This document shows positions 12,660 through 59,850 of a stretch of DNA of 64,000 nt, piece by piece. Position 1 is the first letter of the stretch. Each line of letters begins with the position of its first letter. The stretch is from Beroe forskalii. Its lineage: Eukaryota; Ctenophora; Nuda; Beroida; Beroidae. The notes beneath the pieces were generated by a model. The model was given only the letters and a program-made list of their open reading frames with translations. It was not told where the DNA came from and did no database searches. The stretch covers positions 310,001 to 374,000 of the forward strand of contig WFMF01000137.1 in the NCBI GenBank assembly GCA_011033025.1. The letters are read 5' to 3'. The translations under genes were made by a program, and so were the position numbers.

Positions 12660-12719
12660 TATATACAGGAATACGATGATGGCACATTAATTAATGATAA
12701 ACTGAAATCAGTACCGTAA

Positions 12720-17789: not shown

Positions 17790-17850
17790 GTTGACACTTG
17801 ATAGGAACTTCTTTATCTAACATACTCACCAAAAATAATTTCTTGTCAGT

Positions 17851-18299: not shown

Positions 18300-19215
18300 T
18301 ACTTGACTTCAGCCCACGTTCCAACATGACGCCATTGTACGTTTCACAATTGACACTGCTCAATTTTACGTTTCACACTTGACACCGGTCTATGTTCCAA
18401 ACTTTACTCGACAGTGGAACGTATAATTGGAGTGAAGTGTGGATCGTAGATTGGTTTCAAGCGTCGAGCGTAGGTGTCAAGAATGAGACCGTAGAATGGT
18501 CTCAAGATGGAACGTAGACTGAAGTTCAGTGTGGAACGTAAACTGGAGTTAAGTTTTTAACGGAGAGTTAAGACTGGTGCCAGCTATGGATCGTAAACCG
18601 TGTAAAAAGTACAACTATACCGAAGGTTCGTGTCAAGTTAGAACGTCCAATTGTGTGTAGTGTGGATCGTAGACTGGAGAAGTGTTGAAACTGCCACCGA
18701 GACTGATGTGAAGTGTGGATTAATGGATTATACTCTGGTGGCAAGTGCGGATTTCACACCTCAAGGCTCAATCTATGTTGCAACTAGACTCCAGTCTAAA
18801 CTCTACAGTCCACACTTCACACCAATCTACGATCCACACTTCACTCTAGTAAACGTTCCACACTTTATTCGAGTCTACGTTCCACACTTCTATACTAGAG
18901 AGTAGGTTCCACACTTAACTCCAGGAGCTGCGTTCACACTTGAATTCATCTTCTTCACAACTTGACACCATTCTACGTGCAGTACAAATTGACAACAGTG
19001 TACGTTCCACACTTAACTCAATTTCACGTTTCACACCGATCTACTATGTTTCACACTTAATTCCAGTCTATTAAGTTGGAACTTAGACAGAAACGCAGAC
19101 GGGAGTTGATTTTTTAAAACTTTGTGAAGTGGGTAACTTTGAGTAATAAGACTGCTTTGAAGCGTAAAACGTGGACTGGAGTAAAATGTAAAACGCCATC
19201 ATAGTGTCAAGCTCA
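18300..19215. repeat. Diverged ~25-bp repeats in alternating orientation
   Basis: Units of ACGTTCCACACTTGACACCA type read forward at 18300-18410, reversed (AGTGTGGATCGTAGACTGGA) at 18415-18740, forward at 18775-19080 and reversed to about 19210. Each switch creates a long imperfect hairpin. It is non-coding. Confidence 0.8.
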
Positions 19216-21426: not shown

Positions 21427-21427
21427 C

Positions 21428-21575
21428 CTGTGAGTTGGCAGGACTCTCACTACCGGTGGTGGAGTACAGACTGTAACTAGTGGGGTAGTAGCTGGCCTCG
21501 TTAAAGTTAATCCCGTACCCGGTACCCGACCCTCGCTGCTGCTGCTGAATCCACTGAGCTGTTGGGTCCGCGAAA
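21428..21575 (-). CDS. dvl: Dishevelled exon 8 (linker towards DEP)
   Basis: Acceptor tccctag opens a frame reading [16 protein letters not shown] and [14 protein letters not shown]. It resembles the DPxAW-containing stretch between PDZ and DEP in Dishevelled. The 3' end is uncertain: either before GTTTTAATG (exon to 21428) or before the stronger donor GTGAGAGTC (exon to 21451). No DEP exon was recognised to the left. Confidence 0.72.
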
Positions 21576-27500: not shown

Positions 27501-30500
27501 GTAAGTGTGTACGTGTACACGTGTACGTGTTTGAAAAGCGTAAGTGTAAATGTCTGTAAGTTTGTGTCTGTAAGTTTGTGTCTGTAAGTTTGTGTCTGTA
27601 AGTTTGTCTGTCAGTCTGTGTATAATGTATATGTCTGCACGTTAGTCTGTCTGTGGGTATATGTTTATATGTTCCTTCGTCAATTGTCTGTCTGTGGGTA
27701 TAGGTGGGTTTGTCTGTACAACTTTTCGTGTCTGTTAGTAAACTAAATGTATGAATTTTCGTGAGTGGTTGTGGAGATGAGGAGTGCCCCACTGTAGCTC
27801 TGTTCGGATGTCTGCCGATTCAATGAATGCTTGTTTGTCTGTTTGTCTGTAAAATGTACACTGTACTTGCGTTTGTACATGGCATTATTAACGCATTATG
27901 TCTGCGTCCATGTACTGTACATTACGTATGGCATTGTGTTTGTGAGTCTGTCACTGTATGATTATCATGTACGCGAGAAAAGGAAACTTCAGAGAGCTAA
28001 GGAGCTAAGGAGATGGAAGGGGGAGGGTAACAAATGGCACTTAAATCTAATGGTATGTTAATGACATTCAGAGCGACTGCTCACAATGCCATCCCGGGCG
28101 GTATTATTATAATGGAAAATATACCGGAAAAAAAACTTCAGTCGGCATTTATATAGTCCATATTCGAGCTGCTGCAAAGGTCAAATCGATTTAAGGTGCC
28201 AGGTCAGACGAAATAGAATACCGGCTACAAGGGACAAATCAATTCATGAAGATGTTTCGCAAAGAGAGATTTAATTCGAATATAGCAGCCCGAGCCCGCC
28301 TGAGAATGCTGAATGTAAATGAATTGTTCTTTCATTTTCTAATGTCAGGAAGATCCAGCTCTAAAGTGAATTGTGGCCAGTTCCAAATCAATATTAACGA
28401 AAACTTGAATGTCAATAATTTTTTGGCACAGTCACAGAGAAATTAATAATAAAGCAAATCACGATGTTCAGTGTTCAGCAAAAACCTTCGTGCCAGTTTT
28501 TATGTACAAATGCTGGCGTCAACCAGCTGATTTGTGATTCGTTCCGAGGTTTGACAAATATATTAGAGTCGACAATAAAGCCGAGTAAAACAGGGCAAAA
28601 AGACATGTCAATTATCGAGAAATAAGTGATGTTAAACGACAGGAAAGTTCAGCCCAATTACCAGAAATTCTGGTGTTTCTGGAAGTCAGGATCCAGCAGC
28701 AAACGGACCAAAAACGGAGTTTCAAGCGACAGCATTTAAATATTACGATACTTTGAAAATAATATGATAAAATATGTTTTAAAACGGCAAAAGAAATCCA
28801 AGCACAACAAAATGTTGTTATATGCGAAATGGATACAACTGCTCACGTTATATAACGTTATGATATTTGTTGTAATAAGTAGCAAACACTCAAAAGTTCC
28901 GACACCGTCAAACACAAACAGAGCTACTTAAACAATAAAATACTCTCTCCTTCGTGCGACGACGACACATCATGAATATATAAATATTTAATAAAATGAA
29001 TAAAATGTATATATTTCACAGCATTCAAATATAGATTACTAGAGATATAATAGAATGAATTACCTACACTCACGCGTACAAACCAGTGGCATCATATGAA
29101 AAATATATATCAATAAGCAAGTCATTCGAAAATGGTGGTACACAACTTTCGAGAGTTATAAATTGCCATTCACGCCAAATTGGCGGGAATTTTGACGTCA
29201 TCATCATTGTTGAAAATGGTGGGTTATTGACGTAACGAGCTATTTCTCGTGAGCAACTCACACTATATATAATTTTAGTTCCGAACACCTTTAGTTATAA
29301 TAAAATTTTAAACATTTAGTACTAAAATGGCGCATGCATGGCGATCTGGTGTGAAAAGAGAAAAGCCGAAGAGGTTTTAAAACGGCGCGCACACGAGAGA
29401 GATAGAGAATGTGTTTTGTCTAATTTAAGATTATATATTAAACAAAAGACCGGTGACTCCGAACATTCTTCAGTCAAGATATAGAAGTTGGCGCGTTAAA
29501 GAATGTCAGATACGATGACGTCATTATCAAAGCTAAAACTGCTAAGTTGATGACGTTGAACCGCATATTTTATGAGAACGGCGTTTAGAGATAAAGCAGC
29601 GTACTTGAGATACATCTGGTTCAGTACAAACGCACAAACGCACTGCGCGTCGCACGCAAATAACACGCCGTCAAAAATTACGTAATTTTCATACCTCAAA
29701 GTGGTCTATTGATGACGAAACATCCCGCCTAGTTTTTGACGGAATATCTTCCAAGTCAGAGCGGCGACGTAAGATTATCACGGAATGTGTGCGGTCACAA
29801 GAAACACGTGAATTATGACCCCACCAAAGCACCAAAGGCGCGGATCTAAAATTAGATGAGAGCTTTGATATATGATATGCAAGGTACACGCACATACATA
29901 CACACAGGTATTATTGAGTGAGTATCGGAATAATAACAAAATTTAATTTCATACAAGGGCGGTGGTCCGTGGAAGTCCCACAGCCCCTTTCAAGAGGAAA
30001 CGTGAGGCTGGAACATTCCATAGCAAGCGATGATCATTCTGGAACATAAATACAAGCGTGGCAATACAACGTGTTGTAATCGTACGATTCCGAAACATCA
30101 CTTCGATACTCATAAATCATGCGACTTATAATGAATAGAAGACGCTCAAAATTCAAATATGATGTCAATAAAACATGGAAAATTAGCTGTCGAAACCAAT
30201 AAACCGAAAAATGCAAGAAAGGAAGTGGTTTTCGGTAAATTCCATAAAATCACAGCTCTTTCAGAAATGTGCAGCATAGAATAAAATAACTCTCACAACA
30301 CAATAATGTGTAAATTACAATATACGGAATGGGAAATCACACTTCCCCACGCAAATCACGCAACCAACAGACTCTTTAGAGATGACGTCATTATCATAGC
30401 TCAAAGTGGAGTGTTGATGACGTCATTATACCGACTTATATTATTTCTCATGGGGTTTAACATACGTAACATTCCTGACAAGCCTACGACACACACAATA

Positions 30501-33500
30501 CACACGGACACACAAACATACAAACACACGGACAAACAAACACACGGACATACAAACAAACAAACGAGCATATAATATAACATATTCAGTATTCACATAA
30601 TAAAATGAGGGAGGGTAAATTCCGCATTTTACAGATTTTCATGGGAAGTATAAATTTATTTCAATTTATATGAAAAATTCATATAAATGAAATCAACTCA
30701 TATACTGAGACTATAAAAAGGAAATTAAACAGAAAATTAAAAATCAAAGCGTATATTTTAAACTCAGCCAAGCACACTCAACAAACAAACAAATAAAGCA
30801 TAATATACTACAAAATTCAAGCAAAATATATAATCACATATTCAAGTAGGTCCGAATGAACATAATTATCACAAATATAATACGTGTTAGATCACACATA
30901 ATAAATATTAAATATTTACGAAGGTATTATATACTTCGACAAGCGTCATGGGTCAAGGGGGGCTTTCAAGCGACGCACACGCAATCCCACACAAGAGACT
31001 TTGGAAAATAATACCAACCGCAATATATAGGCGGCTCAACATCATCAAATTACAGCTTTGTGCTATGATAATTTCATCATCGTATTGCAACCGCCTTCAA
31101 GTCCTACACACATCTTGTTACTAACCGACCGCAAGGGTATGTAACAAGCTCTGAAAAGTACAGAAGGAAACTAACAACTTGAGAGACGATATTACGTCAC
31201 GTGATAACAGGGTCACGTGATAAAATAAATCACGTGATATGATCACGTCATCTTAAAATTCTTTGGAATTTAACCAGTGTAGGCAGTGTACATTGTATAG
31301 TGAGAGCTGTATAATCCGATCCATGACACTACGTCCGGTTATGTCAGCTGTGCGCTAGATTCAATGTCTGATTTTAGCTTTGACTCACGCTTTAATTCAC
31401 ACATCATCTGAATCGTTCAATCAATTGCAATTTGCAGATGTAACATTGTACAGCAAATCTGTACTGTATTATGCAAATAAAAAGACAATATTTGACTGAT
31501 ACAGCTGTATGTGATAAATTGATGAAGTACAGAAAAATTGTTGCTGATACATGACAATGTTCTATTGAGGACGGTACATACCGAGCAAGACGACAACAAA
31601 TACTAACATACAGTTTAAAATGATACGCAGTCTAAATATATAATACCTAATACCCTGGCAATTTTCTGCAAAAGAGGTGATCTGGAATAAACAGGAATGA
31701 GAAATATGCTATCATTCCCAAGGTCAAACACTCATGCCAAAAGATCTAGAATTCTATAAATATAAACGAAGATCTTTTGTCGTTTTGTAACAAACTAACA
31801 AATTGACCGAGAAGTCAATTCTGGAAAAGTGGGCAAGAATTCGTAGAAATATCTAACCAATACTCTAGACAATCGGATACCGATCAAATTTATTATGACT
31901 ATGAATAATTACTGTAGTGTCTGGAAGAATGCATTCTGCTCGATCGGTAGTCTGAAGAAAGGAAAAGATAGAGGAAAACAGCAATTACATAATACACAAC
32001 GTAGAATAATTTTATTACTCATTATCAAATGATGTAATTTTCTGAGCTACTATAGTACAGTACTTGAATCGGGGCACACTTGGAAGAATTTAGTACATGT
32101 TGGTCCACTATGTAACTGCAGTGCAGTTGCAGTGATTTCAAAAAGTTAAAATTCTTCGCCTTATCACAGTTAACTATTGGGGCGGGGGTAAGGCAAACTT
32201 TGGCAAACTATGGCAAACTTTGGCTAACACTTTATTTGGCAAACTCCAAAAAAAGTGGAAGCATTTGCCAAAGTTTGCCAAAGTTTGCCAAAAATAAAAC
32301 ACATTTTTGAGCACTTTGGCAACACTTTAGGTACCCATAATATGCTTTTCAACGATGCTGAATCGATTCCCAAGGTCAGTTTCACATTTTGACGTTATCC
32401 AGAAGCTGTAGCAGAGATCACATCCACATTGAATAGAGTAGGAGACTACAGTAAAAAAATACGGTATTTCATTACCTCTTAATTTAAGTCTTATGCATTT
32501 AAGTACTAAGTAGTCCGATCAAACAGTTGAAGCCTTTAAAACCGAAGCATCCACGCTGTTCCAGCAGCCTAAAATCAATAGTAAGGCCCCACCAGGGCCC
32601 CTGACCAGTTTCCATGGATTCCTGCAACATAACCCGACATAACGTTGTTGAGAATATTATTTGCCTAGTGGAGACTGAATGGAGCCTAGTGGAGGCTGGG
32701 TGGAGCCTAGTGGAGGTTGGGTGGAGCCTAGTGGAGGCTGTGTGACGCCTAGTGGAGGCTGTGTGGAGACTGGAGCCTAGTGGAGGCTATTGTTGCATAG
32801 TGGAGGCTGAATGGAGCCAAGTAGAGACTGAGTGGGGACTAGTGGAAGCTAAAAGAACGCTGAGTGGAGCTGAGTGAAGGCCGATTGGAGCCTAGTTGAG
32901 GCTGAATGCTGAATAGAACCTAATGGAGGCTGGGTGGAGCCTAGTGGAGGCTGATTGGAGCATACTGGAGACTGAGTGGAGCCGAGTGGAGGCTGTTTGG
33001 AGCGTGGTGGAGGCTGAGTGGAGCCTGGTGGAGGCTGGGTGTCGCCTAGAAGAGGCTATATGGAGCCTAATGGTGGCTTTTTGGAGCCTAATGGAGGCTG
33101 AGTGGAAGCTAGTGGTCAGTGGAGGCTGAGTGGAGTCTAGTGGAAGCTGAGTGCAGCCTAGTGGAAGCTGAGTGGAGCCTAGTGGAGGCTGGGTGGAGCC
33201 TAGTGGAGGCTATTGTTGCCTAGTGGAGGCTGAATGGAGCCAATTAGCCAAGTAGAGACTGAGTGGAGCCGAGTGGAGGCTGTTTGGAGCGTGGTGGAGG
33301 CTGAGTGGAGCCTAGTGGAGGCTGGGTGTCGCCTAGAAGAGGCTATATGGAGCCTAATGGTGGCTGTGTGGAGCCTAATGGAGGCTGAGTGGAGGCTAGT
33401 GGTCAGTGGAGGCTGTGTGTAGCCTTGTGGTCCATTGGAGGCTGAGTGGAGCCTAGTGGAGGCTGAATGGAGCCTAGTGGAGGCTGTGTGGAGCCTAGTG

Positions 33501-36500
33501 GAGGCTGAGTGGAGCCTAGTGGACTAGTGGAGGCTGAGTGGAGCCTAGTGGAGGCTGAGTGGAGGCTAGTGGAGGCTGCGTGGAGTCTAGTGGAGGCTGG
33601 GTGTCACCTAGAAGAGGCTATATGGAGCCTAATGGTGGCTGTGTGGAGCCTAGTGGAGGCTGAGTGGAGCCTAGTGGAGGCTGAGTGGAGCCTAGTGGAC
33701 TAGTGGAGGCTGAGTGGAGCCTAGTGGAGGCTAGTGGAGGCTGAGTGGAGTCTAGGGGAAGCTGAGTGGAGCCTAGTGGAGGGAGAATGGAGCCTAGTGG
33801 AGACTATTCGAGGCTGAGGTGCCGAGTGGAGGCTGTGTGGAGCCTAGTGGTCCAGTGGAGGCTGAGTGGAGGCTGAATGGAGCCTAGTGGAGGCTGTGGA
33901 GCCTAGTGGAGGCTGAGTGGGGCCTAGTGGAGGCTGAGTGGAGCCTAGTGTAAGTGGAGGCTGCGTGGAGCCTATTGGAGGCTAGTGGAGGCTGAGTGGA
34001 GTCTAGGGAAGCTGAGTGGAGCCTAGTGGAGGCTGTGTGGAGCCTAGTGGACTAGTGGAGGCTGAGTGGAGCCTAGTGGAGGCTGAGCAGATGCTAGTGG
34101 AGGCTGAGTGGAAGCTGAGTGGAGGATAGTTGGAGCTGTCTGAAAGTTTGAATCTATAAACTGCTTTTAAAATTAAGAAATTATTGCGCATTTACCAGCT
34201 TCCTTTTAATTTTGTTTTATGGACGCTAAGCCTCCAAATAGCCTCCATTAGCCTCCATATTAAAGCAATTTATACGAAAATGTTATGATTCAGTTTCTGT
34301 GTCCAAGGCTAAAAAAAAAGCTTCAGTGGAGGATAAACCAAAAATTTCACCTCATGGAGGCTGAGTGGAGGCTTATGGAGGCTAGTGGAGGCTAATTAGC
34401 CTCCACAGGAGGCTATTTTCAGTAAGCCTGCCTATTGCAATCATTGAGTATATCCATGGAGGCTAATGCAGAGGCTTATTTTTAAATTAGCCTCCATTCA
34501 GCCTCCATGGATGCTAATTTTGGTCATATTCCTGTGGTACAATTTTGCCAAAGACACATTATCGGATGCTGGAGTAGACACATGGATCATTCTTGATGAT
34601 TATAAACATGTCTTTTCTTGAACCAAAAGGTTCTCAAAATTCTAACCAGGGTCCTTTAGAATACCTTTTTGTAAACAAAGCTTGAGGCTTGCAGAGGAAT
34701 GTCAGACGTGAAACCAGTAAAAAGCCTTGAAGGAAGGTCTGAATGAAAATTAAGCATTGAAATCGATTCAGCTCACTCAAATCATTATACACGTCCTGCA
34801 TGCACTGTGGACAATAAATCAGAAATAACAAAATTTTTGGGGTATTTTTGGCAAACTTTGGCAAATTTTGACAAAACTTTGGCAAACTATATGGCAAACT
34901 TTGGCAAACACTTTTTTGGCAAACTGAAAAAAAGTGGAAGCGTTTGCCTAAGTTTGCAAAGTTTGCCCATACCCCCCACTATTGTAATGCGAGAAAAATT
35001 CACCAAAAGATTGTATAGATTCGACGATTACTAAACATTTCTCTGGAACTTTCTGTCTATTCTTCTCCAAACATATTTTGAATTTCCAAGGGCCAACGAC
35101 TTTTAAAGCTTACCAAAGACAAACAACATCTGCGACGCAAGAGAACGCGTTTCTCTCGACATGCAAGGAAGTGAAACTGATTCATATATAAGGGCGGGGA
35201 GAGTTCGCAAATATTTCAAAATATATAACACACGACCAGAGAAGTCACGGACAATTATCAGATCATTACTTAATCAGTTGATAATGGACGTGCTTAACAC
35301 GTATGTTAATTAGTTCGAGTACAGATGATGCTGGAAAACGCGTGCACGCGAAAAGTAGACGAGCAAACGTCATCAAATTACTACCAAAAATAATGATAAT
35401 GACGTCACTCTAAACTTCTAACATATAAATCCTTCAAACGGCGAATAGATTGAAATAAAGTGGAGAGCAAACACAACTGATAAATATTATAGTTTGCTGA
35501 GGAGCCGGAATTTTGGGGAAAATATCCAAGGAATTTTAATCGAACTATCGTATATTTCATTGCGTTTATATTAAAGGTATGTCTGGTCCGACAAGGAAAA
35601 TAATAAAAAGATAATTTACGCAAGCCTTCAATATTAATAATGATCTAAACGGTACAAGTTTACAGATAGGGCTATATTGGGAATTATTGATCAATTTTAT
35701 CTTACAATAGGAACGAATTGTATAGTCTACATTTGCTAATAATCGTCAATGGAAAATGTAGACAACGCAATTATGGATTAAATATACAAAATTAATAAGA
35801 CCACTAATCAATATATGATTGTGTGATTAGAAATAAAATAATAAGACATTGTCTAGGAAAAATACTGAAGAATTCACACCAAGGTTTCATCATGAGAAAA
35901 ACGGCGGAGAGAAATGTGAAATATTTCCTTTTTCGATGGAATTTTAATTTCTAGTAGATAGGTATTTCGGAATTTAAAATTAACTTCGATTCAAATCCAG
36001 CGAACTTGAACTGAAGAATGTCAGAACAATTATAACGTATTCAATAGAACAAGTCCCATGCAAACTTTTTGTTAGAGCGAACGGTTAAAAATCCAAAAAA
36101 CAGAATACGAAAACAAGAAATACATTGCAATGATATGTCATCGATACATCAAATATTTTCACATAATTTAGGGCTCCAAAACGTGTTTAAAACAATATTT
36201 AATAATAAGTATCGAAATAACTGTAAATTATCAGTAATGAAACTAGGAATTATGCACAAATAACTGTAAAATGTCAGTAATAAAACTCAGAATTATGCAC
36301 ATTCTTTGGCTCTATCATCAAAAGGGCCGAGGGCGTAGGATGAAGAATCGGTTGCCTTATGAAAATATACAGTACAAACACAAAGCACCACGAAGAGTCG
36401 GGTTGACGCCTTCAATTCCACATTTAAACTTATGATAATGACGTCATTAGCAATCAGCTATAATTCGTGGTTTGTAAAGGAGAAGAATGTTTAATGTTAA

Positions 36501-39500
36501 CGTTAATAATTGTCAGTAATAATCATTCGGGCGTATAAAATGACACAAAGTCAGTTGTCAAGCATTTAATTTCAGAAACACTTTTCACCGCAAAATCCAT
36601 TTAATTAATAACCCAACCGGAAACCTTTCGCCGAAAAATCCACTTAATTTAATCTCTAACGTTAAAACATCAAACAAACGTACAACTTCGCAATAAATAC
36701 ACAAATTCGCAATAAATGTGCAATATAAATTTCTCAAAGCGGACAACAAACTCAGACTCTGAGCAAAGTCACACGGCACTCACACGGCACGCATCGTACA
36801 ATACACTGAAAAACAGACTATCCGATGTCTGTCGTCAGTAAATCACCATTCTAAACCATGAAAATGACGTCATACAAATCGCCAAACCTCTACTGTGCGA
36901 CACGGCATTAAAAGAAATGGAAATAAAATATATTCCAGATTGAATGTCACACTCGCAGAGCGGAGACTGCCATGATTATTTAGTGAACCATGACCAGAGC
37001 CCCACACCTAGTGGAGGACACCGAGAAATAGGCGGGTAGGATGACATCATTATCAAAGCTCAATGTGGTGAGTTGATGACGTTGATAACCGCCTATTTCT
37101 CGCTCGCGGTTTATAGTGTGGCTGGAGCCGCGGGAAATTCAGCCAGAAGACGGTGGATTGAATTTAACGCGCCAACTGTATAGGGGGGAGTGCCGTCATT
37201 ATCATGGGTTAAAATGGAGAACTAATTCATGGCTTAATTTCCGGTCAAAACCATTTGTAAAATGTATGATCATTAACAATCAATCTATAATACAATTAAT
37301 ATTTAATATCATGGAACCAGGTGAGATTGTACAAAATTTCCTGGTTACTAGTATACTCTACTCAGCAAGTATTGAGATCATTACACAAGTATCAGAGACT
37401 CAATTCGCAGTGGCAAGGGAAAATTTAAAAAGTACAATATGCAGAGACACAATCATGATCAGCAAAGACCTGAGACAACAGGAGACAAAAAATATCAAAA
37501 AACGCAATATGCACAATATGCGGAGATTCACAATATGCACAATACGTGGAGCAGTGGCAAGGGACATAGAAAATGTAAGAAATGTACAATATGTGAGAAA
37601 GGTACGGATCCAGGTGACGCCATTATATTTGTGACGTGCGTGTAATTCGGGAGATGATCCAACCAACGTTGCAGCGGAATATTTTCTGAGTGTTACGTCA
37701 CTTACACTCTTACAGTAGCACAGGAGGGAAATTGGTAATGGACAAATGATTGTGTAATTTTTGTGATTTTCCTAATTTTGATTAAAATTATTTCTACGGC
37801 GGAAAAATTAATTGTTCGCCATTTCCATGATTAGAATGTGGCGAATTGATGAATTACCGATGACAATTTTGATTTTTGTCGACAAACTCAAATGGCGATT
37901 TTCCAGAACTTTCGCTGGAAACAGGTGCAGAAACAGATTTAAGGTTCCATTGAAACAACCACAAAACACAATCGAAGTCAAAATGAGCAACTAGCACATA
38001 AATTAGAATTTAGAGCAACGAAAATCAGAGCAGATAAAACTTATCACTGGAAAAAGTTGACATTTGATGAAAGAAAATTTACTATCTGCTCGAATAAAAT
38101 GATAGCTTGATAGATAAGATAAAAGCCTTGCAAAAATTGACTGAAGAAAAGAAAATAATTTCATAATTTGCAATTGAGTGGGAGATTTTGAATTATTAAT
38201 TTCTTATCGTGCTGAGCTCGGATCCCATTTGCATAAACATAATTGAGCTCACATATAATGCGATAAGCATGCTAATTATTTCATTACGCTAATATCCGGT
38301 CTGATAATGACGATGAATAATCGATTATTTACCGATTTCAAACTTCAAAGACATATCAAATGGTTGAATGAGCTCCTTGCAAATAGACAATCCAACATTT
38401 CGCTCACACAACCGACACAGAAACGATGATATTTCTATAACATATTTGGGACATGATGCCAAAGATCAATCAAAATTTGAAGAGCTCTAAGAAAATTTAT
38501 TATAAAGAAAATTATACAATCCTAAATAAATATATAGGAGAGAAAATTTATATATTCAATTACACATCGCAACATACCACAAATTGAAAATAAATACCTT
38601 AAATACCCAGAGGGGCTCTAATGCATCTGAAATGCGTATTCAACATCTGGAATGCTACTTAAAACAGTAAACGGAGGAAGAGGCCTTTTGGTTCCATCGC
38701 GGAAATAACATGTTAGGTAATACAGTATGCGATTTTGAGGTGTTGTCATGGTGATATGATGTTAAATTTAGTTTTACCATGGCAACCAGACACAAGATAA
38801 TATTTTCAACAACTAGCTGAATTAATTTTTCTCATATAATGTGACACTAGTGCAAGTTGTACAATCGAACAAAGTCAAACAACCGTACTCCGATTTAGGA
38901 ACTGAAAATCAATATCGTGGATTTTCATAGCTTCAGGCGCCGGCTTCTCACATCTGAACATGATTGCATCAATTGATCGTCGGTTTTACAAAAGTTCAGT
39001 TCAAAGAGCTCCATCAGATCCCTTCTCTTACATCTTTGTAGAGTTGGGAATGATTACACGGATACTGTGAGCCCAGTATGTAATTTAAACCAGTATTACA
39101 AAGTTCATAAAGTTCAAAGAAAAAAATAGGAGAGTTTGCAACGACCGAGTTCAGGTTCTAGCTTCGAAGCCGAGGCCGAGTTTGCATCGTAAAGGCCGGA
39201 GCCGAGGCGTCGAGACCGTGAATCCGAGTTCAACGGAGTTCATATAACTTTGAAGCCCAGTATGCCGTAAAACTTTTTAAAGAATGAACCAATCGGTAGA
39301 TAAAAGTTCTTATGTTTAATTTTAATCCAGAGAAAATTTTAGCTTGTTTGATCCTAAATTCAAAAGTTGTTCTGGCAATTAGTATCAAACTCGAAAATGA
39401 AGCAAAATTTGGCCGACCGAGGCCGAGGCCGAGTTTGAAAAGGGTCATGGCCGAGGCCGAGGCCGAGATTTTTACTGGTTTGGTGGTTCTAGAGCTTGAG

Positions 39501-47599: not shown

Positions 47600-47621
47600 A
47601 TCAACATCAGCCAACTGTCAT
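47581..47621 (-). promoter_or_regulatory. Two overlapping short upstream ORFs in the Dishevelled leader
   Basis: Directly upstream of the Dishevelled ATG the minus strand has ATG at 47621 (five codons, stop TGA) whose stop overlaps a second ATG at 47607. That second ATG opens eight sense codons plus a TAG and runs across the true start at 47599. If the leader is contiguous here, initiation at the main ATG would need leaky scanning. A splice acceptor inside the leader would remove the issue. Confidence 0.35.
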
Positions 47622-48440
47622 CCTTGTGCAATATTCTCCCTAATAATAAATGAACTTGTTAGATTTCTTTTTAATTCAAATATGTTTTAACCCTGATTTT
47701 CAGGAGAAGCATCTCTCAAGATAAAGTATTGGATCAGGATGCATGCCACTCACATTAATTTTATTAATGTGCAACATAAAAGGACACAAATGACCCGGAT
47801 CCATCCACCGGTCCTCTACTTCTCTTCACTTAGTGTGTTGCTTAATTTTTTGATGCTTGGAGTGAAGACAAAGACCAAAGAGCAAGTTTCAGATTTATTC
47901 AGGCAGATGGTCACTGCACTTGACGGTGCTATACCCTGGCACCAGGGGGTGACTGCTAGGGGGCCTACCTCATAAAAAGCTCTCGCAATTTAAACACCCT
48001 GAAAGCTGAGGTAGGTATTGGACTGAAAATGCCTCCACACCACTCATCTTGGTGTGACTCACTAAGATCCTACTGCTCTCCACATTGCATTACCTAAAGG
48101 AATCATGTTGGTGTTCAAGTACGGAGTTGGAGAAAAGTCTTGCAGATTGATGTCTTGAAGAAAGATTTCTTTTTAATTCAAATATGTAATCGTTAGAACA
48201 AAGTTTAACATGATGTGACAAATACAACCATCATGTTAGCATATTGAAATCAAAAAGCAAAACATTTCTTCAAGGCTGCTATCTGCAAGACTTTCATCAA
48301 CTTTTTATTTGAACTCTTGCATGGCTCCATTGGGTAGGAGCATGTAGTGATGGAAAGATCCAAATGAACCACAACTGAGGTGGATGGTGTGTAGGCATCA
48401 TCAGTCCAATGCCCACCTTAGCTATTGGGTTGTTAAAATA
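47600..48440. other. Dishevelled upstream region
   Basis: Putative promoter and leader of Dishevelled. No TATA box or other element can be assigned with confidence, and no other gene is seen. Confidence 0.4.
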
Positions 48441-48673
48441 TAAGCATGATGAAAGAGGCCAGAGGGGGTTTATTATTAGCTAAGAAATTGGGGAAGATCA
48501 ATAAGGACGAAAAATTGTGCCAGGTGCCAGGCCACACAACTGTACCAAACCTAGATGAGTACAAAACCAGACAATTAATTCCCAGTGGACTTTTCTGCAG
48601 AAAGCTAGTTAGCAGCAGACTCATTCAGCCAGCCTTCATTCAACAGTATAATAAGCGGTTACATGTCGAAGTG

Positions 48674-48777
48674 GTGACCGTATACCGCAACTTACATGGT
48701 CGAGGCGACAGCCGAGACTGTGTGAGTTGGATAATGGACGAGGCGTGCCGAGTCCATTATCGAAGGTATACGGTCAC
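48674..48777. repeat. Nested hairpin element
   Basis: Outer arms GTGACCGTATACC (48674-48686) and its complement (48765-48777) enclose inner arms GATAATGGAC (48730-48739) and GTCCATTATC (48752-48761). A partial related sequence, GACCGTATAACC followed by AAACTTACACGGTCG, lies at 49540. Probably a small palindromic mobile element. The 142-codon frame across it is not credible as a gene. Confidence 0.75.
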
Positions 48778-48944
48778 AGCTGAGATCATGGAACCGGATT
48801 ATACCCCGACCAGAAATAGCTGGGACCGACTATTCTCCAACCAAACAACAGTATTTCTTCCCACTCGGGTCTGACGACCCTCGTCCGGATTCAACGCTTA
48901 AGTAGATATTTGAGTGCTCCTTTATAAAATCAAATTTCAGTTTA

Positions 48945-49530
48945 ATAATAATAATAATAATTCAAACTTATAGATTGTGGTGGCACATCAACTTAATTAA
49001 TTGCACAGCTGTGCCACGAAAACAGAGAATCAAAAATGCATTGACAGTGCACTAACACAACAACATAAAGCTTTATAATAATGTCAAATAATTTAAAATA
49101 CTGTAAGATAAGTTTTAATTTGAGCACTGTCAGAGTAACGATAACCTTTATATACAGAAATAATTAAACAAATGTTAAATAATATTAAAAGCTTGATTAA
49201 ATAAATACGTTTTAAGTGCAGATTTAAAATTGTCAATTGATGAGCAAGATTTCAGTTCTAAAGGGAGGCTATTCCATAATTTAGGTCCACACTTTTCAAA
49301 GGAACGTTCACCAAAATGGGAAAGAACTCTAGGTTCATGCAAGTAAATGGAATGATTAAAATCTGCATATTTAAACATTGAATTGAGATAAACAGGTCCT
49401 GAACCAGTTAAACATTTATAAACAATGAGGAGAATCTTAAACTCAATACGATACTTTATGGGCAGCCAATGTAATTCTTTCAAGGTTTCACCAAGATGGT
49501 CATGTTTGTAAGCTTTTTTGCACTGTAATT
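48945..49530 (-). pseudogene. 5'-truncated LINE copy (CR1/L2/Jockey-like C-terminus, 3' UTR, ATT tail)
   Basis: The minus-strand frame reads LKELHWLPIKYRIEFKILL, VYKCLTGSGPVYL, SHFGERSFEKCGPKLWNSLP and FKSALKTYLF. LHWLPVxxRIxFKxxxLVYK, then WNSLPxxL, then FKxxLKTxLF is the standard C-terminus of these retrotransposon polymerases. A stop near 49172 is followed by about 200 bp of 3' sequence and an (ATT)n tail, whose complement is the AATAATAATAATAAT at 48945-48962. Confidence 0.88.
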
Positions 49531-49734
49531 CAGTGAAGACCGTATAACCAAACTTACACGGTCGCTAAAACAAGCTTGGGAGGGGTATAATTAATGCTTT
49601 TCCAGGGTCTAGCCTTCTTTCTATTTTTGCAATGAACTGCTTGGGTAACTGATTGGTCATGGACCAGTTTATTTTTCTTAACTGTGCTCAATGACAAGAG
49701 CAAGCTCTCTGCCAGTCACCAGGACACCAGACTC

Positions 49735-51005
49735 TCGTTAGACGTTGCCTGACCCCTCACCTTTAAAATTTGAAATAATAGGTCTGATAACATCAGACAA
49801 CCAGACTCTGCTAGCATTTGACACATGTCCACAAAAAATAAGATACTGGCAAGCACTAACAGATTCCATCATGTTCAGAGACAGTCAGCCAGTGTTTACC
49901 ACTGGCCAAAGTTCACAGCAATGATTGTTTGCTAAAGTAGGTACCTAAATTTTATCTGAACTTATAGCAATCATGATTCAAATTACTGGAGTGTGATCAT
50001 AGGTTGAAAGCAGCAGGTTGAAAATGTAGGTAAAAAGGGTCCAACATATTTAATTTAATTCCTTCTCAATATACATACACAGTGTCACTAAATAACAACA
50101 ATTTAAAAACATTTTAAAATTACTGTTAATTGCAAAGCACTTCATGGCTTTGCAATTGCATATCATGGTTTCAAAGTTCATGATATATGACGAAAAGTAT
50201 CATTCCATAGAGAGAACCATCCAACACTGGCTACAGGAAATGCACTTTCAACATCTATTTAGCCTTTTTCATTCAACCTATGAAACTGTTTTCAGAATGC
50301 ATAGGAATTGCTGATTAGAATTGCATTGAAAACTGACCATAATATTGGCTCCAGCAAAACCCACGACCTTCGGTTGCTACGTCAAGATGATGCTTGATTC
50401 AAAAATCACAACCCGTTGAAAATTATTAAAAAATATGTGTTGCATTAGTATTGATTTTGCTTTTTTGCAAACATAAAAACTGGATTCAAAAACCCAGATT
50501 TCTTCCATCCGTAGCGCGCGGCGTCAAATTACAAACGGAAATATTGAGGGATAGGACTGCAGGGTAGTGTTACAAATTGCTTGTTAAAATATCCCGGCCT
50601 TAATCACTGCCTTGCTAAACACGTATATCCCTGTGTGGCTCGCACGGTGCGGCGCGGCGCGTACACTCACCAATGCGGGCTTGAAAAATCCTGCCCATAT
50701 TGCTCGGCGCGTTGCACAAAACTTTTTCCATTGTTCATTCTAGTCAGAAAATGTCGGTCAATATTTCAGCGTTCGCGTTGTATACGGCATACGCAGCGCG
50801 AGCGCCGCGCGTTACTTTCCCCTAACCAGGGGTGTCGCGAAACGGAGCAAGGCGCGGCGCGCGCGTAAAACTAGGGATCTGGTTAGAGCAACGCGTTACT
50901 TAACTTAAAAAACTCTACACTCGTTATGTCTGACGTCGTCAGACCCATTATTTCAAGTCGTGGCGCGCGCGCTTCGCGCGCGCGAGGGGTCAGGCAACGC
51001 CTGAC
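49735..51005. repeat. Pair of inverted GTTGCCTGACCCCTC blocks
   Basis: 49740-49800 (GTTGCCTGACCCCTC, TTGAAATAATAGGTCTGA, ATCAGAC) is repeated inverted at 50920-51005 (complement of GTTGCCTGACCCCTC, then TTGAAATAATGGGTCTGACG). The right block carries an extra perfect GCGCGCGC/TTC palindrome. The pair may be the ends of a 1.2-kb non-autonomous element or two solo short elements. Confidence 0.65.
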
Positions 51006-51223
51006 AAAGCCCGCAACAGTCTGTTAATCATGCTAAACATGTATATTTCTGTTCGCATTGCGCGGCGCGCTTCCTGTATAGGAAGCTCTGCACGCGTACG
51101 CACACCTATGCAGGCTTATAAATTAATGAATTATACTTAAGTCATTGTCTTTTTAATAGTATAAGTATAGCTTAGGGCATTGATGGAAAAAATCCGTCTA
51201 CGTCCGTTCAATCATTTGCCCTA

Positions 51224-51281
51224 ACCAGGACCCTGGTTACGCGCACGGAGTGCGCGGCAAGCCCCTGGTTAGGGGAATTCA
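51224..51281. repeat. Short GC-rich palindromic element
   Basis: CCCTAACCAGG to CCTGGTTAGGG inverted ends, with a GCGCAC/GTGCGC inner hairpin, about 57 bp. A diverged relative with CCCTAACCAGGGG lies at 50818. Typical of very short palindromic mobile repeats. GGCGCGC-rich islands surround it (50640-50870, 51060-51110 and 51830-51880). Confidence 0.7.
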
Positions 51282-51299
51282 ATCATCAGTTGAACGATG

Positions 51300-52329
51300 C
51301 TATTCATGAACATCAGACTGCTGGAATTCTTGTGGGACGCTTGATAATTTTAAGGCAGATGTCGCCACCTCGAGAAATAAGAATTCTTCTGAAATTTCCG
51401 ATCGCGCGGCGCTATGTACGTAGGTGAATATACTGTTAAATCAGTATCACACGCGTACAAATTGTGGTTTTGTGGAAATTGCAGACACCGATCTCAGAGG
51501 TGGCGACACCTCAGTAACGCTAATGTTAAATTGTTAATTTTCTATGCTAAGTGTAGTCTGAAAGATCCAGTTTAATGCCTAGTGAACCATGGAAAAAGTT
51601 TTGTGATATTTGTTGATGCAATATCATGATTATTTAACTTATTATTCTATTTTAATTTTTATTTTATATTTTCTTACACACAGACAAGTGATGATTTTGC
51701 TCGTTTATTTTATTGGTGCTATTTCTCTTTAGACACAATAAACAAAATTTGTTGAAGAATCGTTGGTCTCCCATATACAGAAATTGGATCATACTAGATG
51801 GATTTCACCCATCCCTAGCGCGCAACACTCGGAAATTTGGAGGGTCGTGTCGCGGAAAAAAATGGCGCGCGGCGGAGGGTAGGGTAAAATCCTACTAGGA
51901 TCATACATTCCGAAAGACCATTAACCTTTCGTTTCCCTTGTACGTCGCAATTAGAGGAAAATTAGAATTTACTTCAATCATCAACATTCCGAAAGTATAA
52001 TGGACCTTAAGTGACTAAACGTCCTATAGTGAATGGGCATATTCTGTCTCAAAAAGAATTTTTGTGTAAGGAAAAGGTTGTGATTATTGCTGTTATAGAA
52101 TGATCGAATTACCTAAATAAAGAAATTAAGTCAGGAAACTGATTCTTTGAAATAGTGAATAATTACTGATTGAACATGAAAAACTTAATGAGTAAATTAA
52201 TATAATGCTGGTCTGTAATGTTGTAAAATGTTGAATTTTTTTGTTTAATTCTTCGTTTTAGAACAAATACAGCCATCTTTGTAGTCAATTACTTAATAAT
52301 CAAATTAAGTTGCTTTTGAATTTAATATG
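51300..52329. other. No gene recognised
   Basis: Intergenic. GGTGGCGACA occurs inverted at 51360-51370 and 51498-51508, suggesting another short palindromic element. Otherwise AT-rich. Confidence 0.5.
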
Positions 52330-53269
52330 TGTGCTGAAGTTTGTTTGTTTTGATCTCGGTTATATTTTGTGGCCGAACTGTTTCAATAGAATTTAAAATA
52401 TGTATTAAAACTGATTTTAGTGAATGTTCTGAAAAATCGCAAATTTTGAATTTGTCGTCTAACTCAAAAGTGACATCGTTAATTCATCAATTTGGCGCTT
52501 ACACCAATTCAATAATAGAGAAAAATCCATTTTTCTACCGTAGAAATAATTTTAATCAAAATTAGGAAAATCAGCAAAATTACACCATCACGTGTCCATT
52601 ACCAATTTCCCTCCTGTGCTACTGTAAGTGACGTAACTCACAGAAAATTCCGCTCCAACGTTGGTTGGATCATGTCCCGAATTATACGCACGTCACAGAT
52701 ATAATATAATGGCGTCACCTGGACCTGTACTACCTTTCTCGCATATTGTACATTTCTTACATTTTCTATGTCCCTTGCCACTGCTTATAGAATCTCCACA
52801 TATATTGTGCATATATTGAGTTTTGATATTATATATTGTGCATATTTTGAGTTTTTTGATATTTTTGATCCCCTTGTCTCCCGATGTCTCAGGCTAATCA
52901 TGATTGTGTCTCTGAATATTTGTAACATATATCATTTTTAAAACTTTCCCTTGCCACTGTGAATTGAGTCTCAGATACTTGTGTATGATAATTTAGTCTC
53001 TCAATACCTTCTGAGTAGTATACTAGTAACCACGAAATTTTGTACAATCTCACCTGGTTCCATGATATTAAATATTAATTGTATTATCGATTGATTGTTA
53101 ATGATCATACATTTTACAAATGGTTTTGACCGGAAATTAAGCCTACAATGGACGACATAAGTTCTCCATTTTAACCCATGATAATTAAGTCACTATACAG
53201 TTGGCGCGTTAAATTCAATCCGCCGTCTTCCGGCTGAATTTCTCGCGGCTCCAGCCACAGTACGCCGTG

Positions 53270-53358
53270 CGTGAAAAATAGGCGGTTATCAACATCATCA
53301 ACTCACTACATCACGCTTTGATGATGACTTCATCCTACCCGCCTATTTCTCGGTGTCC
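53270..53358. repeat. TGACGTCA-type module (right arm)
   Basis: GAAAAATAGGCGGTTATCAA, TCATCAACTCAC and CCCGCCTATTTCTCGG. This is the right-arm counterpart of 37020-37108. Confidence 0.78.
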
Positions 53359-54173
53359 GACTAGGTGTGGAGCTCTGGTCATGGTTCACTAAATAATCAT
53401 GGCAGTCTCCGCTCTGCGAGTGTGACATTTAATCTGGAATATATTTTATTTCCATTTCTTTTAATGCCGTGTCGCACAGTGCAGGTTTGGCGGTTTTGTA
53501 TGACGTCATTTTCATGGTTTAGAGTGGTGAATTTGTGACGACAGACACCGGATAGTCTGTTTTTCAGTGTATTGTACGATGCGTGCCGTGTGAGTGCCGT
53601 GTGACTTTGCTCAGAGTCTGAGTTTGTTGTCCGCTTTGAGAAATTTGTACATTCATTGCGAATTTGTGTATTTATTGCGAAGTTGTGTACGTTTGTTTGA
53701 TTTTTAACGTTAGAGATTAAATTAAGTGGATTTTTCGGCGAAAGGTTTCCGGTTGGGTTATTAATTAAATGGATTTTGCGGTGAAAAGTGTTTCTGAAAT
53801 TAAATGCTTGACAACTGACTTTGTGCCATTTTATACGCCCGAATGATTATTAATGACAATCATTATCGTTAACAGTAAAACATTATTCCCCTTTACAAAC
53901 CAAAAGTAATAGCTGATCGCTGGTGACGTCATTATCATGTGTTAAAATACGGAATTGATGGCGTCAACTCGACTCTTTTCAGAGCTTTGTGTTTGTACAG
54001 TATATTTCATAAGGCAACCGATTCTTCATCCTACGCCCTCGGCCCTTTTGATGATAGAGCCAAAGAATGTGCATAATTCTGAGTTTTATTACTGACATTT
54101 TACAGTTATTTGTGCATAATTCCTAGTTTCATTACTGATAATTTACAGTTATTTCGATACTTATTATTAAATA

Positions 54174-54664
54174 CCTTACAAGACAAAATAACATGGGACA
54201 ATAATTCCGGGGATCGAAATTTTGGGGGTTCGAAAATATGGGGATTTTTTTCAAAAATCCCCAAATTTCGTACCCCAAATTAAATCAGGTGATTTTCGCC
54301 TTTTTTCAAATTCGAAAAAATAAGGTAACTTTTGGGAATAAATCAGAACTTCAGAAAGGCCAATATTACTGAGGTGATCGAAGTAGTAGAATTTCCAGTA
54401 CAAGATCCCTTTTATCGAGTCGAGTGTAGGAGGTTTTATTAGGAATTACTGCATTTAAGATATTTTTAACTCTTCTGCACTAATATACTTATTGAAATTT
54501 GTCTGGGAATTCTATATTTTATGCACTGTTAGTCAAATCACAAACCCGCAATTAACTAATTTGGGGGAAATAATTTTGGGGATCGAAATTTTGGGGGAAC
54601 GAAAATATGGGGATTTTTTCGTAAAATCCCCAAATTTCGTACCTTTTAAATATGTCTCGTAAGG
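54174..54664. mobile_element. 491-bp MITE with TA duplication, right arm only
   Basis: Ends CCTTACAAGACA and TGTCTCGTAAGG are inverted. TA flanks both sides (54172-54173, 54665-54666), and the left arm shows the empty site (TAAATATTGTTTT, complement near 36190-36203). The TA target suggests Tc1/mariner-type mobilisation. Inside, a block GGGGATCGAAATTTTGGGGG followed by an AAAATCCCC hairpin is present twice. Confidence 0.88.
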
Positions 54665-56672
54665 TATTGTTTTAAACACGTTTTGGAGCCCTAAATTATG
54701 TGAAAATATTTGATGTATCGATGACAGGTATCATTGCAATGTATTTTAATGTTTTCGTATTCTGTTTTTTGGATTTTGAACCGTTCGCTCGAACAAAAAG
54801 TTCGCATGGGACTTGTTCTATTGAATACTTGATAATTATTCTGACATTCTTCAGTTCAAATTCGCCGGATTTGAATCGAAGTTAATTTTAAATTCCGAAA
54901 TACCTATCTACTAGAAATTAAAATTCCATCGAAAAAGGAAATATTTCACATTTCTCTCCGCCGTTTTTCTCATGATGAAACCTTGGTGTGAATTCTTCAG
55001 TATTTTTCCTAGACAATGTCTTATTATTTTATTTCTAATCACACAATCATATTGATTAGTGGACTTATTAATTTTGTATATTTAATCCATAATTTCGTTG
55101 TCTACATTTTCCATTGACGATTATTAGCAATTGTAGACTATACAATTCGTTCCTATTGTAAGATAGAAATGATCAATAATTCCCAATATAGCCCTATCTG
55201 TAAACTTGTACCGTTTAGATCATTATTAATATTGAAGGCTTGCGTAAATTATCTTTTTATTATTTTCCTTGTCGGACCAGACATACCTATATAAACGCAA
55301 TGAAATATACGATAGTTCGATTAAAATTCCTTGGATATTTTCCCCAAAATTCCGGCTCCTCAGCAAACTATAATATTTATCAGTTGTGTTTGCTCTCCAC
55401 TTTATTTCAATCTATTCGCCGTTCGAAGGATTTATATATAAGAAGTTTAGAGTGACGTAATTATCATTGTTTTCTGCATTGAATTGATGACGTTTGCTCG
55501 TCTATTTTTCGCGTGCACGCGTTTTCCAGCATCACCTGTACTCGAACTAATTAACATACGTGTTAAGCACGTCCATTATCAACTGATTAAGTAATGATCT
55601 GATAATTGTCCGTGACTTCTCGGGTCGTGTGTTATATATTTTGAAATATTTGCGAACTCTCCCCGCCCTTATATATAAATCAATTTCACTTCCTTGCATG
55701 TCGAGAGAAACGCGTTCGCTCGCTTCGCAGATGTTGTTTGTCTTTGGTAAGCTTTAAAAGTCGTTGGCTGTTGCAAATTCAAAATATATTTGGAGATAGG
55801 AGAATTCTTGATGGAAAATTCCAGAAAGATGTTCAAAAGTCGTCGAATCTATGCAATCGTTTGGTAACTTTATCTGTAAACACAATTACAGTAGTTTTGT
55901 GTGACGCGATGAAGAAAATTGTTTTCAATCACTGCATAGCTGCCACATATTGGATCGACGTGTACTAAATTCTTCAAGTACTGTACTATCGTTGCTCAGG
56001 AAAATTACATCATTGGATACGAGTAATAAGATTGTATATTATGTAATTGCCGTTTTCCCCCTCTTTTCCTTTCTTCAGACTACCGATCGAATAAAATGCA
56101 TTCAATCAGACACTGCAACGGTAATTTTTCATAGTCATAATAAATTTGATCGGTATCCGATTGTCTAGGGTATTGGTTAGATATTTCTACGAATTCTTGC
56201 CCACTTTTCCAGAATTGACTTCGTGGTCAATTTGTTAGTTTGTTACAAAACGACAAAAGATCTTCGTTTATATTTATAGAATTCTAGATCTTTTGGCATG
56301 AGTGTTTGTCCTTGGGAATGATAGCATATTTCTCATTCCCGTTTATTCCAGATCACCTCTTTTACAGAAAATTGCCAGGGTATTAGGTATAATATTTAGA
56401 CTGCGTATCATTTTAAACTGTATGTTGGTATTATGTTGGCGTCTAACTCGTTTAAATGTACCCTATTCAATAGGTCATTGTTACTAACTTGATAGGTCTG
56501 ATAGGTCGTATATTAGCAACGATTTTTTCTCTATTTTATCAATTTATCACATACAGTTGATTGTAGTATGTACTGTTCATTGGTGTGCTTTACACGTGAG
56601 TCAATGCTAAAATCAGACATTGAATCTAGCGCACAGCCGACATAACCGGACATAGTGTCATGGATCGGATTA

Positions 56673-57449
56673 CCTTAGTGGTAGAAATTAAGAAGTGTAC
56701 TATTTAAGGTAGTAAGCAATTTTACTGCCTTAAATAGTACACTCCTTAAATTCTACAAATCTTAATTTCTACCTACCGTAATTTGTACAATACCAAACTT
56801 TTAGAAAATTTTGTTAAGTAAAGATTTGTACATCTATAACTATCTTTTCTTTCACTACAAAATTAAGGCATTCCAATTTCCATTTTCTCTCAATACAGGT
56901 TCAGAATTTTTCAGCGAAATCATCAGTGCAGACAAAATCAAACTTGATATGATAAACAATTATCACTCGATAAAAATTATAGGCATTTATTCAGCTTCTT
57001 CGTCTTCCTGCACATCTTCCATATCTTCCACCTCAAGCCAAATAGAACCTTCTTCGATATCTTCTTCGATGTTTTCATCAGGAAACAAGGCCTTCAAAAT
57101 TTCAGCGGAATCATCGGCCAATCTTTCATCAAACGGAGGCAGTGAAACATTGCAAAGAACATGGTGTTGACTCAAGGATGCTCATTGACCCGTTTGCTAA
57201 TCTGTTTCTCTAGAACGCCTAGCTTTACTTTTTTCAATGTTTCATAGATCCCAAATAAATGGAATTCAATGGAAAAAATCTGCCCTCTTCTTGTTTTCAC
57301 ATCGGTATTTTTGGTTGAAAATTGGTGAAACAACGTGAAATTTAGTCCTAGAATTGCCTGATTTTTGTAGAAATTTTACTGCCTTAATTAGTACACTTCT
57401 TAATTAGTACGTCCTTAATAAATACACATCTTAATTTCTACCACTAAGG
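56673..57449. mobile_element. 777-bp Tc1/mariner- or pogo-like non-autonomous element, right arm only
   Basis: Perfect ends CCTTAGTGGTAGAAATTAAG and its complement, flanked by TA (56671-56672, 57450-57451). The left arm has the uninterrupted GATTATAC site (about 31310-31318). Several subterminal ACTATTTAAGG/TTAATTTCTACC repeats look like transposase sites. A minus frame (56987-57175) ends in a strongly acidic run (EEDIEEG, VEDMEDVQEDEEAE), like the acidic tail of pogo-type transposases, so it may be an internal-deletion derivative. Confidence 0.87.
56987..57175 (-). pseudogene. Acidic C-terminal ORF inside the 777-bp element
   Basis: 62 codons: RLADDSAEILKALFPDE, then alternating Glu/Asp to the stop. 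No catalytic motif is present. The acidic tail is compatible with the end of a pogo/Tigger transposase gene, but the family is inferred only from composition and from the TA-flanked element around it. Confidence 0.35.
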
Positions 57450-59399
57450 TATACAGAGCTCTCACTATACAATGTACACTGGTTAAATTCCAAAGATCTG
57501 AAGATGGCGTGATCGTATCACGTGATTTAGCAATATCACGTGACTTTGTTATCACGTGACGTAATATCGTCTCTTAAGTTGTTAGTTTCCTTCTGTATTT
57601 TCAGAGCTTGTTAAATACCCTTGCGGTCGGTTAGTAACAAGGTGTACGTAGGATTTGTAGGCGGTTGAAATACGATGATGAAATTATCATAGCACAAAGC
57701 TGTAATTTGATGATGTTGAACCGCCTATAACTTGCGGTTGGTATTATTTTTCATAGTCCCTTGTGTGAGATTGCGTGTGCGTCGCTTGAAAGCCTCCCTT
57801 GACCTATGACGCTTGTCGAAGTATATAATACCTTCGTAAATATTTAATATTTATTATGTGTGATCTAACACGTATTATATTTGTGATAATTATGTTCATT
57901 CGGACCTACTTGAATATGTGATTATATATTTTGCTTGAATTTTGTAGTATATTATGCTTTGTTTGTTTGTTTGTTGAGTGTGCTTGGCTGAGTTTAAAAT
58001 ATACGCTTTGATTTTTAATTTTCTGTTAAATTTCCTTTTTATAGTCTCAGTCTGAGTTGGTTGCATTTATATGAATTTTTCATAAATTGAAATAAATTTA
58101 TACTTGAACACATGAGAATCTGTAAAATACGGAATTTACCCTCCCTCATTTTATTATGTGAATACTGAATATGTTATATTATATGTTCGTTTGTTTGTGT
58201 GTCTGTTAGTTTGTGTGTCTGTTTGTGAGTGTGCATTGTTAGTGTGTGTGTGTCGTAGGCTTGTCAGGAATGTTACGTATGTTAAACCCCATGAGAAATA
58301 ATAAGTCGGTATAATGACGTCATCAACACATCACTTTGAGCCATGATAATGACGTCATCTTTTAAGAGTCTGTTGGTTGCGTGATATGCGTGGGGAAGTG
58401 CGATTTCCCATTCCGTATATTGTAATTTACACGTTATTGTGTTGTGAGTGTTATTTTATTCTACGTTGCACATTTCTGAAAGAGCTGTGATTTTATGGAA
58501 TTTACCGAAAACCACTTCCTTCCTTGCATTTTTTCGGTTTATTGGTTTCGACGCTTTATCCATGTTATATTGACATCTACTTAAAATCATATTTTGAATT
58601 TTGAAGTCGCATGATTTATGAGTATCGAAGTAAGTGATGTCCCGGAATCGTATGATTGCAACACGTCGGATTGCCACGCTTGTATTTCTATTCCAGAATG
58701 ATCATCGCTTGCTATGGAATGTTCCAGCCTCACGTTTCCCTTGAAAGGGGCTGTGGGCCTTCCACGGACCACCGCCCTTGTATGAAATTAAATTTTGTTA
58801 TTATTCCGATACTCACTCAATAATACCTGTGTGTATGTATGAGTGTACCTTGCATATCATGTATCAAAGCTCTCATCTAATTTTAGATATCCGCGCCTTT
58901 GGTGCTTTGGTGGGGTCATAATTCACGTGTTTGGAGTGACCGCACACATTCCGTGATAATCTTACGTCGCCGCTCTGACTTGGAAGATATTCCGTCAAAA
59001 ACTAGGCGGGATGTTTCGTCATCAATTGCCCACTTTGAGGTATGAAAATGACGTAATTTTTGACTGCGTTTAATTTGCGTGCGACGCGCTGTGCGTATGT
59101 GCGTTTGTACTGAACCAGATGTATCTCTAGTACGCTGCTATATCTCTAAACTCCGTTCACAAAAAATATGCGGTTTAACGTCATCAACTTAGCAGTTTTA
59201 GCTCTGATAATGGGGTCATCGTATCTGTAATTCTTTAACGCGCCAACTTCTATATCTTGACTGAAGAATGTTCGGAGTCACCGGTCTTTGTTTAATATAA
59301 TCTTAAATTAGACAAACACATTCTCTATCTCTCTCGTGCGCCGTTTTAAAAACCTCTTCGTATTTTTCTCTTTTCACTCAGATTGCCATGCAGGCCATT

Positions 59400-59850
59400 T
59401 ACCACTTGATAAAACTCCTTGACACCACTTGATAAACTCTTTGACACCACACACTGATGTAGATAAACTCACAGATAAACACAGATCCAGATCAGCACCA
59501 CTTGATAAACTCCTTGACAGACTGACATCAGTTTAACGTGTGACAGATATCACTTGACTACTCGACACTTGACACCACTGATAAACTCCCTGACACAGGA
59601 GATAAACTTCACTAATTCCCTGATACCACTTTACAATCTCCTTGACACCACTTTATAAACTCCTTGACACCACTTGATAAACTCCTTGACGCCACTAAAT
59701 GAACTCCTTGACACCACTTAATCAACTCCTTGACACCACTTGATAAACTCCTTGACACCACTTGATAAACTCCTTGACACCACTTGATAAACTCCTTGAC
59801 ACCACTTGATAAACTCCTTGACACCACTTGATAAACTCCTTGACACCACT
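59400..59850 (-). repeat. 22-bp minisatellite next to the last NOMO exon
   Basis: Tandem CTCCTTGACACCACTTGATA plus AA units, most regular from 59630 to 59850 and degenerating towards the arm boundary. It starts two or three bases after the exon j donor, so it occupies what should be the next intron. Minus-strand frames through it are artefacts. Confidence 0.95.

Follow-up and report, generated by a model that had tools for sequence, protein, structure and literature searches.

An inverted low-copy duplication brackets the 5' part of Dishevelled in the ctenophore Beroe forskalii

The Wnt gene Dishevelled of Beroe forskalii (assembly GCA_011033025.1; 216 Mb in 1,134 contigs) lies in a stretch of 64 kb that also carries a large inverted duplication. 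We analysed this whole stretch, referred to here as the window, which corresponds to bases 310001-374000 of contig WFMF01000137.1 (C178; 419,141 bases). Genes were searched for with pieces of human DVL2. Two DIX exons and two exons spanning the basic region and the PDZ domain were located on the minus strand (Table 1). Pfam recognised the DIX domain at E 9e-14 and the PDZ domain at E 8e-8, and a Dishevelled-specific Pfam domain directly before PDZ gave a weak match below the cut-off. The splice sites at the exon edges, read by eye, are plausible. Exons beyond these four, and the promoter, were not found; across the three minus-strand frames of 38100-47100, Pfam gave no match at an E of 1 or below. 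The left arm of the duplication separates the DIX from the PDZ exons, and upstream of DIX lies the right arm. A first-pass annotation of this DNA had claimed that the duplication brackets the 5' part of Dishevelled and that the present orientation reads as one gene. Both claims stand: the DIX exons are inside the bracket, the PDZ exons are outside it, and all share one strand. Its numbering, with exons 1-4 enclosed and 5-8 outside, and its placing of the promoter within the bracket found no support.

An acceptor-like sequence immediately precedes the start codon. A role as spliced-leader site is conceivable, as PMC8527503 describes frequent trans-splicing of ctenophore mRNAs. If the acceptor does serve a spliced leader, the promoter cannot be placed from the sequence. 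Just upstream of the start codon, at 47661-48187, is a unit of ~500 bp from a very abundant, often tandem family whose members are 91-97% identical (examples are C275:191711-194727 and C1024:151463-154982). When the whole interval enclosed by the arms was used to search the assembly, repeats dominated the matches. Two open reading frames (ORFs) without a Pfam match, at 49175-49564 and 14383-15088, have what we take to be a resemblance to the ends of LINE-type retrotransposons.

Table 1. Positions of the Dishevelled exons, the duplication arms, their matching blocks and their private insertions (window coordinates).
Feature	Position	Strand	Identity	Remarks
Left arm of inverted duplication	29325..38019	+		carries private 2.8-kb insertion
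Right arm of inverted duplication	52309..59400	-		carries private 781-bp and 493-bp insertions
Interval enclosed by arms	38020..52308	.		14.3 kb
Inverted match 1	29325-31313/57450-59400		91.0%	2734 bits (self-comparison)
Inverted match 2	31502-32068/55973-56559		85.0%	677 bits (self-comparison)
Inverted match 3	34992-36197/54665-55875		94.4%	1874 bits (self-comparison)
Inverted match 4	36196-38019/52309-54173		85.6%	2149 bits (self-comparison)
Dishevelled first DIX exon	47522..47590	-		start codon just upstream, reading M-G-E-T-K
Dishevelled second DIX exon	47133..47285	-		DVL2 query and Pfam DIX
Dishevelled basic region and PDZ start exon	23715..23771	-		
Dishevelled PDZ exon	23266..23451	-		sole assembly match to the PDZ exon
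2.8-kb tandem-repeat-cored insertion	32180..34978	+		left arm only; 2,799 bases
MITE-like 781-bp insertion	56671..57452	-		right arm only; TA at both ends
MITE-like 493-bp insertion	54174..54666	-		right arm only; TA at either end; CCTTACAAGACA / CCTTACGAGACA as inverted ends

When the window was compared with itself, four colinear inverted blocks linked the left arm to the reverse complement of the right arm. The top block scored 2,734 bits, against a best score of 29.2 bits among 20 base-shuffled arm pairs. Summed over the four blocks, the arm-arm alignment is 92.1% identical in 5,594 columns, and the blocks taken in order are 92.7, 90.4, 95.3 and 89.8% identical in their aligned columns (1,936, 666, 1,200 and 1,792 columns). 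The aligned columns amount to 64% of the 8,695 bases in the left arm and 79% of the 7,092 in the right. The self-comparison and the alignment thus recovered the inverted arms, with the coordinates and the 14.3-kb spacing that the first-pass annotation had given. It went too far in describing almost the entire arms as reverse complements of each other, and its size of 7-8 kb was an overstatement, the remainder beyond the common unit being mostly insertions in one arm. After the private insertions are subtracted, 5,896 bases remain in the left arm and 5,818 in the right. From these lengths we conclude that the arms shared a unit of ~5.9 kb and have since diverged, each gaining insertions of its own. 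Opposed in orientation, longer than 1 kb and identical at ~90% or more, they have the properties of a segmental duplication.

The inner end of the arms fades, with 77% identity across the last 400 bases and 60% in the last segment compared. Past the arms, the outer side yielded one match of 71 columns (27328-27394 / 61094-61161; 73%, E = 0.001), and on the inner side the best extra match reached only E = 0.013. Directly against the right arm, at its outer edge, lies a 22-bp minisatellite (59401-59850). Smaller inverted structures occur elsewhere in the window, amid 10-bp repeats: a 411-bp palindrome at 8997-9407 (93%), and a 173-bp inverted pair, 5881-6053 with 9398-9570, at 96.5%.

Insertions confined to one arm account for most of the gap sequence between the blocks: the left arm has one of 2,799 bases, and the right arm has two, of 781 and 493 bases. 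The 2.8-kb insertion has ACTATTG on both flanks, and a single ACTACTG stands at the matching place in the right arm. This element gave 219 matches across many contigs (best 40 of 659 candidates scored), and a relative at 689-3526 of the window is 92% identical and in the opposite orientation. Both right-arm insertions resemble miniature inverted-repeat transposable elements (MITEs), and for both the left arm is an empty TA site, near 31311 for the 781-bp insertion and near 36196 for the 493-bp insertion. The 781-bp element is high-copy: 37 further long copies, 91-95% identical, were recorded (best 40 of 2,906 candidates scored); all 26 of the printed copies begin with TACCTTAGTGGTAGAA, and 25 of the 26 finish with the complement of TACCTTAGTGGTAGAA. 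The inverted ends of the 493-bp element resemble those of the 781-bp element. Because the three one-arm insertions face recognisable empty sites in the partner, we conclude that the two copies evolved separately after the duplication.

Do the arms encode anything? At an alignment score above 250, no ORF of at least 80 amino acids is common to both. Counted by codon position, the mismatches in the two longest ORFs number 21/22/19 and 8/1/3, so that the third position is not favoured. In Pfam, none of the six right-arm frames gave a match (E up to 0.1), and no domain came from the two ORFs and the one minus-strand frame of 24500-32000 that were searched for the left arm. Among ten ORFs of the window, Pfam gave a single match, a weak one below the cut-off to THAP9_C (14.1 bits), in 10783-11214. 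The DNA of the arms is apparently non-coding.

We searched the assembly for further copies with left-arm pieces of 1,001, 1,199 and 1,710 bases. Each piece had two long places, which are the two arms. The other matches numbered 89, 2 and 40, none of them above ~107 bases (best 40 of 547, 4 of 4 and 40 of 1,415 candidates scored). Within the limits of this search, the arms appear to be low copy and not a repeat family. Since no piece had a full-length place other than the two arms, we favour a local inverted segmental duplication over a transposon family. The nature of the arms, which the first-pass annotation had left unsettled, is hereby decided toward segmental duplication.

Divergence between the arms is uneven. 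The Kimura two-parameter distances of the four blocks are 0.077, 0.103, 0.049 and 0.110. In the 5,284 columns left of position 37700, the mismatches are clumped: the index of dispersion is 5.6, where shuffles averaged 0.94, and the longest identical run reaches 254, where they averaged 88; for either measure, 0 of 1,000 shuffles matched the observed value. An identical run of 253 bases, 36118-36370, spans the site of the 493-bp insertion, and from this we infer that the 493-bp element postdates the last homogenisation there. The clumping would fit gene conversion or local constraint, and conversion is possible on this pattern of mismatches. Clear conversion tracts were sought with a two-state model, and none was resolved.

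We consider it probable that the arms arose long ago by a local, inverted segmental duplication. The duplicated unit, ~5.9 kb, is apparently non-coding; one copy sits in a Dishevelled intron and the other upstream of DIX. A replication or repair event would have pasted the segment in reverse nearby, giving the second arm. The arms would later have taken up separate DNA-transposon-like insertions, and parts of them may have been kept alike by occasional gene conversion or by constraint. Several observations weigh against this account. The copy-number search omits very common words, and the block at 31502-32068 was covered by one search alone, in which the best 40 of 2,906 candidates were scored. 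The two-state model returned many short mismatch clusters (~29% mismatch over 20% of the columns) and not a few long tracts. GC content is ~0.30 in the longest near-identical segments, compared with 0.35-0.36 for the arms, and because the segments most alike are AT-rich, GC-biased conversion is disfavoured. Finally, Dishevelled-type DEP exons were found solely on contigs C396 and C482, while DIX and PDZ are on C178. With the DEP exons on other contigs, the continuity of the gene or of the assembly is doubtful, and trust in the local assembly is lowered.

The DEP exons deserve a closer description. Pfam did not find a DEP domain on C178. A DEP query found none from the window through the following 10 kb, and none was found in the three minus-strand frames of 8001-23000. 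A search of the window and the next 10 kb for the linker between PDZ and DEP gave nothing convincing (best E 0.6), and the 10 kb upstream of the DEP exon on C396 gave nothing convincing for the linker either. That exon is Dishevelled-like, lies mid-contig (C396:106450-109611) and is 60% identical to the human sequence. Two further Dishevelled-like DEP exons lie at the very start of C482 (C482:1-1951), at 359-451 (61%) and 1010-1123 (55%). This scatter may reflect an assembly join or break 3' of PDZ, a rearrangement of the gene, or a second, DEP-bearing relative. The puzzle concerns the 3' side and has no direct bearing on the arms.

Other DIX sequences were met in the assembly. C606 holds two DIX genes in tandem, 84.5% alike, which are presumably DIXDC1-like. 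A further DIX-like exon is present on C803 and C142, two contigs that share 1.3 kb at 96%. The mitochondrial COX1 gene was found on C1134; it is very divergent, with 20% GC, has TGA at tryptophan positions, and is best read with ATA as Ile and AGR as Arg. Its extreme AT-richness and divergence point to a ctenophore, a group from which genomes of ~110 and 248 Mb have been published (PMC8527503 and PMC11797021).

Could the second arm, or its joins, be an assembly artefact in which haplotypes or a chimeric read were joined in inverse? The ctenophore Mnemiopsis has one Dishevelled gene, which carries DIX, PDZ and DEP together (PMC2959043), whereas here DIX and PDZ are on C178 and DEP is on C396 and C482 (359-1123). 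As these domains lie on separate contigs, and the start of C482 would cut off upstream exons, at least one contig may be misjoined or broken. Heterozygosity in ctenophores can also be high, and a value of ~3.2%, with indels, is given for Hormiphora in the excerpted part of PMC8527503. However, the arms differ by ~8% on average, and each of three large insertions is private to one of them and has a clean target site; this exceeds the heterozygosity of Hormiphora. Moreover, the enclosed part 38100-46900 has no second long copy in the assembly (best 40 of 3,158 candidates scored), the whole 64-kb window contains no N, and the DEP puzzle lies on the 3' side and not at the arms. We regard an artefact as unlikely.

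A second alternative is that the 14.3 kb was once flipped after staggered breaks, which left inverted copies at both breakpoints. This mechanism is known from inversions in flies and mosquitoes, and it would leave exactly the layout seen here, with inverted copies flanking a segment. However, DIX and PDZ are on one strand; a single flip would have broken the gene, and a second flip would be needed to restore it. We find this history very improbable. About as improbable are two opposed insertions of one large, unknown mobile element: the inverted arrangement, the sharp outer ends and the plentiful mobile elements of this region would suit them, but each tested arm piece has two places in place of the many copies with defined ends of a mobile-element family (37 long copies were scored for the 781-bp insertion), the inner end fades, no terminal repeats or target-site duplications were noticed when the arm ends were inspected by eye, and the six frames of the right arm hold no Pfam domain.

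If the arms are an inverted segmental duplication, they would form a recombination substrate. Crossing over between them would flip the 14.3 kb, separate DIX from PDZ and make a null allele; the split of the gene foreseen in the first-pass annotation agrees with the exon strands, as the flip would move DIX onto the strand opposite PDZ. Inverted products would be mutations removed by selection and not a working device, and the inverted pair most likely does nothing as a device. Frequent recombination between the arms, yielding recurrent inverted Dishevelled-null haplotypes in the population or somatically, would be the invertebrate counterpart of the hotspot in factor VIII (F8), and we give it very little credence. 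For a double-stranded transcript to form, both arms would have to be transcribed, from a start upstream of 59.4 kb; neither such transcripts nor the cruciforms suggested in the first-pass annotation found support. Searches of the literature on Dishevelled and on inverted duplications listed no inverted duplication or inversion at Dishevelled. Should the arms recombine, an early-branching animal would carry a ready-made route to breakage of a key Wnt gene, and the locus would allow rates of inversion and gene conversion to be measured in a genome of this kind. For now, it adds one more pair of inverted low-copy repeats, and is mainly a caution for those assembling or annotating Dishevelled here.

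Known systems offer three comparisons. The int22h repeat of F8 is 9.5 kb long, with one copy in an intron and others outside the gene, according to an excerpt of PMC3211038. The Dishevelled locus is similar: the repeat is of similar size, the left arm is the copy in the intron that parts DIX from PDZ, the right arm is the opposed outside copy upstream of DIX, and recombination would split the gene. The int22h copies are very similar and far apart, whereas those described here are ~92% identical and 14.3 kb apart. The F8 intron-22 inversion is seen in patients, whereas in the ctenophore assembly no inverted haplotype was seen. In the human HsInv0389 region, inverted repeats that flank FLNA and EMD enclose these genes and can mediate inversion, as stated in the excerpted part of PMC3961182. 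The pair at Dishevelled likewise encloses gene sequence. However, at HsInv0389 whole genes flip and both orientations occur in people, whereas here the interval holds part of a gene and a flip would break it. The Anopheles inversion 2Rj reportedly has inverted segmental duplications at its breakpoints. The Dishevelled locus shares with it a segment flanked by an inverted segmental duplication, but has no known inversion, and the Dishevelled exons keep one strand across the boundary. Among ctenophores, large heterozygous inversions are described for Hormiphora in an excerpt of PMC8527503. Set beside these systems, the Dishevelled locus of Beroe is a low-copy inverted repeat pair, an ordinary kind of old duplication.

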